Shown here piece by piece: positions 9,539 through 10,668 of a stretch of 25,060 bases of DNA (within the stretch, counting starts at the first letter, position 1; every line of letters begins with the position of its first letter). The position numbers and the translations under genes are program-made. The DNA comes from a virus: positions 1-25,060 of the IMG/VR virus record IMGVR_UViG_3300017751_000205. One strand, given 5' to 3'. Under the pieces are notes generated by a model. The model searched no databases. It saw only the letters and a list, made by a program, of their open reading frames with translations, and had not been told where the DNA came from.

Positions 9539-9955
9539 TTATGAAATTTTAATTTTACGAGGCTGCTTCTCTTGTGGGATTTCTAACTTCAACGTAACTG
9601 CAAGGATACCGTCTTTGAGTGAAGCACCAGATACTAGGACATACTCCGAAAGTCTGAACTGTCTCCTAAAGGCCTTGGTGGATATACCACGATGTATTAC
9701 TTCTCGGTCTCTAGACTCATGGGAACCACTAATGGTCAATGAGCGTTCTTTCTGTTCTACATTTAGTTCATCTTCTTTGAATCCCGCAACTGCGACCTCA
9801 ATTAAGAACTCATCCTCCGTTAACTTCACTATGTTGTGAGGCGGATAATGGTCATTGGCGTGTTTAGTTGCGTATTCCAGTTCATTGAACAAATGGTCGA
9901 AACCAATAAATGCGGAACGTGGGAATAGATTTTTACCTACTTTTAGATTTGTCAT
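9539..9955 (-). CDS. hsp20: Small heat-shock protein (Hsp20/alpha-crystallin)
   Basis: This is an ATP-independent holdase that binds unfolding proteins as an oligomer. At 138 residues it has the usual length. The alpha-crystallin domain spans about 38-125, with the strands NIVKLTEDEFLIEVAVAGF and ELNVEQKERSLTISG. The family signature ASLKDGILAVTL is at 111-122. The C-terminal IKI (135-137) is the I-x-I anchor that docks neighbouring dimers. sHSPs are frequent in environmental T4-like phages, where they are thought to help folding or virion assembly. The gene has its own promoter (10058-10086) and a leader of about 96 bases with three hairpins. The last hairpin buries the AGGAG Shine-Dalgarno in a ROSE-like fold, so heat-controlled translation is likely. 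Confidence 0.93.
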   Translation of the reverse strand: MTNLKVGKNLFPRSAFIGFDHLFNELEYATKHANDHYPPHNIVKLTEDEFLIEVAVAGFKEDELNVEQKERSLTISGSHESRDREVIHRGISTKAFRRQFRLSEYVLVSGASLKDGILAVTLKLEIPQEKQPRKIKIS

Positions 9956-9963
9956 GTCGCTTT

Positions 9964-9988
9964 ATCTCCTATATTAATTTAGCAAGAT
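9964..9988 (-). promoter_or_regulatory. ROSE-like RNA thermometer hairpin covering the sHSP Shine-Dalgarno
   Basis: In the RNA, AUCUUGCU (9988-9981) faces AGGAGAU (9970-9964) across a 10-base A/U loop. Pairs are AUCU with AGAU, then a U-G wobble, an unpaired G, and CU with AG. The UUGCU strand with one bulged G opposite AGGA is the hallmark of ROSE thermometers that control bacterial sHSP genes. The hidden AGGAG is the only ribosome binding site of the gene (nine bases before ATG 9955). Weak pairs and a floppy loop would let it melt with modest heat. Seen in sequence; regulation is inferred. Confidence 0.65.
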
Positions 9989-9991
9989 GAA

Positions 9992-10051
9992 TAGGAACCC
10001 GACCATTCGGCATTCCTACGGTTGTCACTACTCTCGATTGATTTCGTGACA
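9992..10051 (-). promoter_or_regulatory. Two upstream hairpins in the sHSP leader
   Basis: Hairpin 1 is UGUCAC (10051-10046) with GUGACA (10028-10023). Hairpin 2 is UAGGAA (10018-10013) with UUCCUA (9997-9992), plus inner CCGA (10010-10007) with UCGG (10002-9999) around an AUGG loop. Stable helper stems placed before a weak Shine-Dalgarno stem are the usual layout of ROSE leaders. Confidence 0.65.
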
Positions 10052-10057
10052 CTACTA

Positions 10058-10086
10058 TATATAACACTTTTAACTTATAAAGTCAA
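10058..10086 (-). promoter_or_regulatory. Sigma70-type promoter of the sHSP gene
   Basis: TTGACT (10086-10081), 17 bases, TATATA (10063-10058). Predicted start near 10051, giving a leader of about 96 bases that holds three hairpins including the thermometer-like element. This is the longest leader in the window. Confidence 0.75.
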
Positions 10087-10092
10087 GTTTTT

Positions 10093-10668
10093 TTATATAA
10101 ATGTAGCTGGGTCACAGTCTTCATCACTCTCAAAACCAAATGAGAATGTGACTCGTGATACTGTTGGTCGGAGTTGATGCCATGTTCCTCTCGGAATATA
10201 TACACAATCTCCTGGCTGCATAATGACAGTTTGGTCTGCATTCGATGGTTCTTTGGTATAACCGATAGTAATTTTACACTCACCGATCATCTGGAGTAGG
10301 AACACATCCATACTGTCTTTATGTCTTGGATAAGAACCAGAATCTTGTCCGAATCCACAGAACGCAATATTTGTTATTTGGGGTGAACCCTTCTCATATT
10401 CAAATTTCTTTGGTGCTTGGTCTACAAAGAAATCACGCATCTCCCTAACAACATCTTTTGCAATTCGTGGTGCAGATGGTCTGTCATGAAACCTGTTCAT
10501 ACCCAGTCTATTCTTTTCACGATTCCAATCGTATAAATCCTTTGGGTGAGTATCAATCAACCTCATAGCGGTGTTCCAGTCCCACTCAATCTTTTGTTTG
10601 GGGCCCCACCAATGTTTCTTCGCACGAATCTCGTCTACACGTTTTTCAAATCCAATTGGTTTCTTCAC
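10093..10668 (-). CDS. Cupin/JmjC-type Fe(II) 2-oxoglutarate oxygenase-like protein
   Basis: The 191-residue protein carries a double-stranded beta-helix of the JmjC/Cupin_4 kind. H-x-D is at H116-D118 (YPRHKDSMDVFLLQMIGECK), and the distal histidine H164 falls in MQPGDCVYIPRGTWHQL, a typical cupin motif 2. Such enzymes hydroxylate amino acids in ribosomal or other proteins, or sometimes nucleic acids, using Fe(II), 2-oxoglutarate and oxygen. The three metal ligands are present, so activity is plausible; the target is unknown. The N-terminal 90 residues (MKKPIGFEKRVDEIRAKKHWW) have no recognised domain. The start is GTG 10668, joined to the previous stop in a 4-base GTGA overlap that favours translational coupling. 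The 3' end abuts the sHSP promoter. Confidence 0.75.
   Translation of the reverse strand: MKKPIGFEKRVDEIRAKKHWWGPKQKIEWDWNTAMRLIDTHPKDLYDWNREKNRLGMNRFHDRPSAPRIAKDVVREMRDFFVDQAPKKFEYEKGSPQITNIAFCGFGQDSGSYPRHKDSMDVFLLQMIGECKITIGYTKEPSNADQTVIMQPGDCVYIPRGTWHQLRPTVSRVTFSFGFESDEDCDPATFI

Follow-up and report, generated by a model that had tools for sequence, protein, structure and literature searches.

A probable ROSE-type RNA thermometer in the leader of a phage small heat shock protein gene

How is a small heat shock protein (sHSP) gene controlled when it is carried by a phage, and could the leader of its mRNA sense temperature? The question is raised by a locus in a 25,060-base stretch of DNA (positions 1 to 25,060 of IMG/VR record IMGVR_UViG_3300017751_000205), referred to throughout, at its whole length, as the window. 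The window is a fragment of a T4-like phage genome, kept as a virus record, and the phage is a marine virus of bacteria. Its sHSP has relatives in 507 phage records by protein similarity search, with identity below 60% in every one. A preliminary description, made from the sequence, proposed that the sHSP leader has three hairpins, the last of which pairs the sole Shine-Dalgarno (SD) sequence and leaves a bulged G in UUGCU, as in the ROSE thermometers of bacterial sHSP genes. We describe below the leader, its conservation, and the rival readings of it, and conclude that it is probably a ROSE-type cis-acting RNA thermometer.

The locus and the fold of its leader

The features of the locus are collected in Table 1. 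The predicted promoter ends at 10058, and transcription of the sHSP mRNA would start at about 10051-10053, at the foot of hairpin I. The promoter TATATA is overlapped by TATATATA, which resembles the T4 late box TATAAATA, and TATAWATA occurs upstream of 33 of 34 leaders of the window clade and 91 of 168 phage sHSP leaders, as against 9 of 117 control genes. Directly upstream of the sHSP gene lies a gene for a JmjC/cupin-like oxygenase (window 10093-10668, minus strand; Pfam JmjC_2, E 5.2e-12), and in HTVC008M the next gene downstream of hsp20 encodes a 2OG-Fe(II) oxygenase.

Table 1. Features of the sHSP locus, in window coordinates
Feature	Position	Strand	Basis
sHSP gene (HSP20 / alpha-crystallin), 138 aa	9539..9955	-	Pfam HSP20, E 3.4e-17
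Start codon AUG	9953..9955	-	sequence
Shine-Dalgarno AGGAG	9966..9970	-	sequence
Predicted leader (5' UTR), ~96-98 nt	9956..10053	-	sequence, promoter position, fold z -2.1; 5' end inferred from promoter
SD-sequestering hairpin, putative thermosensor: AUCUU[G]CUA x UAGGAGAU, bulged G at 9983	9964..9988	-	leader MFE, RNAalifold consensus, covariation
Hairpin II: GUAGGAAU[G]CCG..CGG.GUUCCUAU, single bulged G at 10011	9991..10019	-	MFE; both-side changes in 7/11 pairs
Hairpin I, extra 5' hairpin	10023..10051	-	MFE of leader
Alternative conformer: 9990-9981 pairs with 9961-9952 (AGCGACAUGA), AUG buried	9952..9990	-	MFE once coding sequence is included
Predicted promoter: TTGACT, 17 nt, TATATA; also TATATATA	10058..10086	-	sequence; TATAWATA counts in relatives

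RNAfold of the leader alone returns exactly the three hairpins first described, as both the minimum free energy (MFE) structure and the centroid, at -24.9 kcal/mol, a fold matched in stability by 8 of 200 shuffles. The sequence and this MFE likewise bear out the pairing proposed for the last hairpin, in which AUCUUGCUA pairs with UAGGAGAU: the anti-SD is AUCUUGCU, and its UUGCU, with the G left bulged, conforms to U(U/C)GCU, the published mark of ROSE elements (PMC3669281). A fourU thermometer was considered and rejected, since four consecutive U are absent opposite the SD. Other traits of the ROSE-like class are also found here, namely the leader of a small heat shock gene, two to four hairpins of which the 3'-proximal one holds the SD, and compensatory changes that preserve the SD pairing.

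The upstream hairpins differ in their constancy. Hairpin I is absent or different in many relatives, and in many the interval from promoter to hairpin II is too short to contain it. In 75 of 109 phage leaders, as against 17 of 2180 shuffled sequences, the upstream hairpin has on its 5' side one bulged G with a C after it, and several other phage leaders, those of cyanophages above all, have a G.G mismatch at the bulge site. In seven loci (L029, L030, L031, L034, L393, L396, L413) the upstream hairpin is replaced by other sequence (GGGAUGUCAC..GUGAGUCCC) or an extra hairpin is inserted, and the SD hairpin is retained.

Conservation and recognition in phages and bacteria

Relatives were gathered by protein similarity, blind to the leader, with the sHSPs of the window, Melnitz, HTVC115P and Atu_ph07 as queries, together with 17 annotated phages; this yielded 256 leaders, 169 of them distinct. 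A loose pattern (YGCY, then an SD at most 16 bases from the start) is present in 167 of the 169. Read by eye, the two leaders that it misses, those of Callisto (L324) and Atu_ph07 (L325), do bear the element, while two that pass by chance (L469, L478) seem truly to be without it, so that the count remains about 167. The strict form, CTYGCW..AGGAG, separates 29 of 29 sHSP leaders from other SD-bearing open reading frames of the same contigs (0 of 119). UUGCU or UCGCU is nearly invariant in the relatives' leaders, and no bulge-free anti-SD (CUCCW) was seen in the 29 sHSP leaders. The phages that bear the element infect hosts including Synechococcus, Prochlorococcus, Pelagibacter, Methylophilales, Pseudomonas, Agrobacterium, Sinorhizobium and Salicola, and identity of their sHSPs to the window protein goes down to 27% in a multiple alignment. 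In a sequence-only scan of IMG/VR, all but one (L119) of the matches listed that are followed by an SD and an open reading frame precede HSP20 genes; among the stretches listed from a like scan of bacterial genomes none passed the filter, and a protein-led locus search with the sHSP of the jumbo phage Callisto found no relatives. The ROSE-type element is apparently standard equipment of phage sHSP genes. Three 'phage' records from Campylobacter and Salmonella (MG065691, MG065686, OR851202) contain enterobacterial ibpA-like sequence, probably from host contamination of the deposits.

The compensatory changes for which the preliminary description had suggested looking are present in these leaders. 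With 111 representatives anchored by a fixed rule, the outer pair -4/+4 (UA, AU, CG) is Watson-Crick in 72, against 44.8 in shuffles, and the inner pair +3/-2 (UA, AU) in 100, against 67.4 (p<=0.0005 for each). The core CUYGCU/AGGAG is nearly invariant, hence uninformative, and covariation there rests on the flanking pairs; constancy of the bulged G is not to be read from this table, because the anchoring rule itself requires YGC. On 31 distinct leaders of the window clade, RNAalifold picks the same SD hairpin unprompted. In the alignment of these 31 (A2), changes on both sides of a pair are counted in 54 cells of the named structure, as compared with 14.2 in shuffles, in which relatedness persists; sliding the partner by one column, a control that removes its effect, lowers pairing from 92% to about 52%. 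Covarying pairs are present in both hairpin II and the SD hairpin, and the pairing is conserved in relatives by covariation and by the RNAalifold consensus alike.

Rfam gives a more qualified answer. At gathering thresholds no match to the window was reported. In a search by E-value, the full length of ROSE_3 (RF02523) can be aligned to 9950-10019, at a score of 30.3 bits (E 1.1e-4 for 251 nt, 2.6e-6 for the whole record), under its curated gathering cut-off of 43 bits. The 45 related virus records behave similarly, with a ROSE_3 match at E<=1 in 24 and a score over the cut-off in one only (L054, 44.5 bits). In ten bacterial genomes the true members are those of Pseudomonas (57.7 and 70.5 bits), which identifies ROSE_3 as the short Pseudomonas type (PMC3669281). 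Judged by the features testable here, the Rfam cut-off apart, the window element is ROSE-type, and by score it is not a member of ROSE_3; since nearly all the phage elements score under that cut-off, routine annotation misses them. A weak match of the window to Rfam S774 (19.4 bits, E 3.3) was taken as chance. A manA RNA motif (RF01745), at 58 bits and over its own cut-off, lies at L322:1-82 (P-SSM2 142953-143034), upstream of the gene that precedes hsp20.

A covariance model built from the window clade alone (R1) recognizes the leader independently. Of 90 other phage loci searched with it, 17 of which had originally been found by motif, 55 show the leader at E<0.01 and 69 at E<=1. Among its hits in bacterial genomes are five leaders of sHSP-like genes (L505, L506, L509, L510, L511) and leaders of rpoH-like genes of the sigma-70 family (L507, L508, L561, L562), three others (L512-L514) looking like chance; matches at two kinds of heat-shock gene support a heat-related role. 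The rpoH-like genes have a two-hairpin ROSE-like leader near position 1500 of the locus, as in aaucuugcuuaauaaggagauaaaaauaAUG of L561, and their bearers are alphaproteobacteria with genomes of about 0.9-1.4 Mb. A second R1 match on one viral contig (L124:2899-2969, minus strand, E 0.001) precedes an acidic 82-aa open reading frame that has no Pfam match, and is perhaps a use of the element outside sHSP genes, or chance.

Bacterial sHSP leaders bear the element too: sampling led by the sHSPs of alpha- and gammaproteobacteria gave 42 readable leaders, 38 of them strict and 4 weak cases. In a tree that joins 59 sHSPs of phages and 43 of bacteria, rough in its details, with bootstrap unsettled and two long branches (Callisto, SCTP-2) meeting, the phage label changes 4 times, as against 33 expected by shuffling, from which it follows that phages have long retained gene and leader and have not picked them up afresh. 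A published tree places cyanophage sHSPs nearer to bacterial class A than to their hosts' own, and the sHSP gene is absent from 13 surveyed Prochlorococcus genomes (PMC3827213); phages seem, then, to carry gene and leader into hosts that have neither. A related case may already be on record, in a phosphate-stress study of cyanophage S-PM2d that lists ATTCAAACTCGCTTAAATA, at -31 of hsp20 (S-PM2d130, Table 2), as a putative Pho box, but found no PhoB binding by it and no response to phosphate (PMC10976474). These letters correspond to those of the ROSE anti-SD arm in related cyanophages (S-ShM2: attcaaactcgctttataaggag; compare L321 near 500-531), a match that would explain why they are conserved.

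Temperature sensing and its rivals

Folded alone, the window leader has a mean SD-open probability of 0.02 at 10 C, 0.26 at 37 C and 0.58 at 50 C, and by the same method the ROSE-type leader of Salmonella ibpA goes from 0.00 to 0.35; the SD hairpin by itself has -7.4 kcal/mol at 10 C, -3.6 at 30 C and about 0 at 49-50 C. These computed values suggest that the leader would respond to temperature. Ensemble calculations that include coding sequence give a shallow temperature trend (one run took in bases upstream of the likely transcription starts), and the trend is common to phage and bacterial sHSP leaders, so that such folding neither proves nor refutes thermosensing; with bacterial sHSP leaders equally shallow and only 6 usable control genes, it was set aside as a non-discriminating gauge.

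In the mechanism that we favour, transcription would begin just upstream of hairpin I, at the predicted promoter, and the stable upstream hairpin or hairpins would hold the leader in register, while the short 3' hairpin, with its U.G pair and bulged G, would conceal the SD at low temperature. Rising temperature would presumably loosen this hairpin in the cell, ribosomes would load and chaperone would be made, to the putative benefit of the phage. Against the thermometer reading we count that seawater temperature changes slowly, so that the benefit to a marine phage is not obvious, and the early proposal that the chaperone is made only when the infected cell is heat-stressed is too strong, going beyond the evidence.

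The rival that survives best, though we think it unlikely, takes the leader to be chiefly the site at which the sHSP represses its own mRNA, free sHSP keeping the leader shut until misfolded protein titrates it away. IbpA acts in this way in E. coli, Cedecea and Vibrio, where it binds the ROSE leader of its own mRNA and holds translation down until aggregates titrate it, an action to which R93 is essential and which R93K abolishes in E. coli (PMC10474464). Among 189 distinct phage sHSPs, 151 have R and 36 have K at the corresponding position, and 188 have an aromatic residue at position 34; a thermosensor alone, moreover, would not need the upstream bulged-G hairpin to be so well conserved. 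R93 and Y34 are, however, general in proteobacterial IbpAs, so that their presence is weak evidence, and the residue aligned with R93 is K in the window sHSP (GISTKAF versus GIAERNF, the column checked against Salmonella IbpA); the clade with K, of 36 proteins, retains the same leader. Self-repression of the IbpA type is therefore unlikely in the window phage, though it may act in most others. A combined reading, speculative and rather improbable, makes the leader a private phage proteostasis sensor in several lineages, loosened by heat and also, where R93 is present, held by the sHSP until protein misfolded through heat or infection titrates it, so that chaperone supply would track the folding load of virions, not the weather.

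A quite unlikely alternative is that the leader damps translation constitutively, with no sensing of temperature, through the SD hairpin or through a competing fold. Once 15 nt of coding sequence are included, the MFE switches to a pairing of UCAUCUUGCU with AGCGACAUGA that leaves most of the SD open and closes the AUG; by nearest-neighbour energies this fold is favoured over the SD hairpin by 2.7 kcal/mol at 37 C and 3.3 at 10 C, and it hardly opens by 50 C. The preliminary description had held that an MFE with AGGAG open at low temperature would tell against a thermometer. The leader alone gives no such MFE; the leader with its start codon does. This qualifies the thermometer reading, but even in that fold the AUG is hidden, compensatory changes are absent, and the RNAalifold consensus of relatives does not choose it. 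On these grounds it was rejected as a conserved structure, its 3' arm being variable and, in part of the window clade, missing or broken, whereas the SD hairpin covaries; in this particular phage it may nonetheless form. There is time for the SD hairpin to form while the AUG is still untranscribed, and we infer that the non-canonical contacts reported for ROSE hairpins may be undervalued by nearest-neighbour energies. Also against mere damping are the invariant bulged G and the lack of a bulge-free anti-SD among the sHSP leaders counted, which point to a hairpin kept weak, and the occurrence of this element before sHSP and rpoH-like genes of bacteria. That the leader is a functionless passenger, which arrived with the gene from a bacterium, is very improbable: bacterial relatives do bear the same leader type, but phage sHSPs form mostly phage-only deep branches, and nearly all phage leaders still bear the element, with compensatory changes and with promoters of their own.

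Relation to known thermometers and significance

The ROSE-like identity first proposed is well supported: the architecture fits, U(U/C)GCU and its bulged G stand before an sHSP gene, ROSE_3 aligns over its full length, pairs covary, and the element recurs on two kinds of bacterial gene. The closest known systems are the short two-hairpin ibpA thermometers of Pseudomonas (PMC3669281; ROSE_3, RF02523), which share with the phage leaders an upstream AUGCCG..CGGGU with bulged G, a short 3' hairpin that sets U(U/C)GCU against the SD of an sHSP gene, an AUG unpaired in the leader-only fold and, in most phage relatives, a leader of about 60 nt. The phage cases differ in the gene being a phage's, in a variable A+U-rich loop, a phage-type promoter and, in the window, an extra 5' hairpin, and nearly all of them score under the Rfam cut-off. 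The classical ROSE elements of Bradyrhizobium hspA and enterobacterial ibpA have an SD hairpin with the same motif, and the Salmonella ibpA leader also has a bulged-G hairpin, GCACGCCUGAUGGGUGUC, but they are longer, with three to four hairpins and host heat-shock promoters. IbpA self-repression through the ibpA 5' UTR involves the same gene family and kind of leader as in the window, but depends on protein binding that needs R93, where the window protein has K (PMC10474464).

Phage mRNAs are already known to have temperature-responsive leaders, in lambda cIII and in SPbeta blyA, the latter a fourU element (PMC4166951, PMC10586365), and a 2023 tally counts one phage RNA thermometer earlier than that of blyA (PMC10586365). 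These have other structures and serve other genes (the lysogeny decision, lysis), and that of lambda cIII closes with heat. The early remark that no phage case was established therefore holds for ROSE elements, of which there is no report in phages in the literature searched (subscription papers being outside its scope), and not for RNA thermometers at large. As far as that literature shows, the kind of element was already known and its bearer is new.

If these leaders act as ROSE elements, thermometers would be standard in phages that carry an sHSP gene, including pelagiphages and also cyanophages, in which hsp20 is a core gene (PMC3037559). The supply of a phage chaperone would then be under translational control and could vary with temperature, which bears on warming and marine infection, and the control that a phage exerts over an acquired chaperone becomes testable. 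Two natural comparisons are at hand, one between R and K at position 93 in sHSPs that share this leader, the other in the cyanophages of Prochlorococcus, whose 13 surveyed host genomes are without an sHSP gene (PMC3827213).
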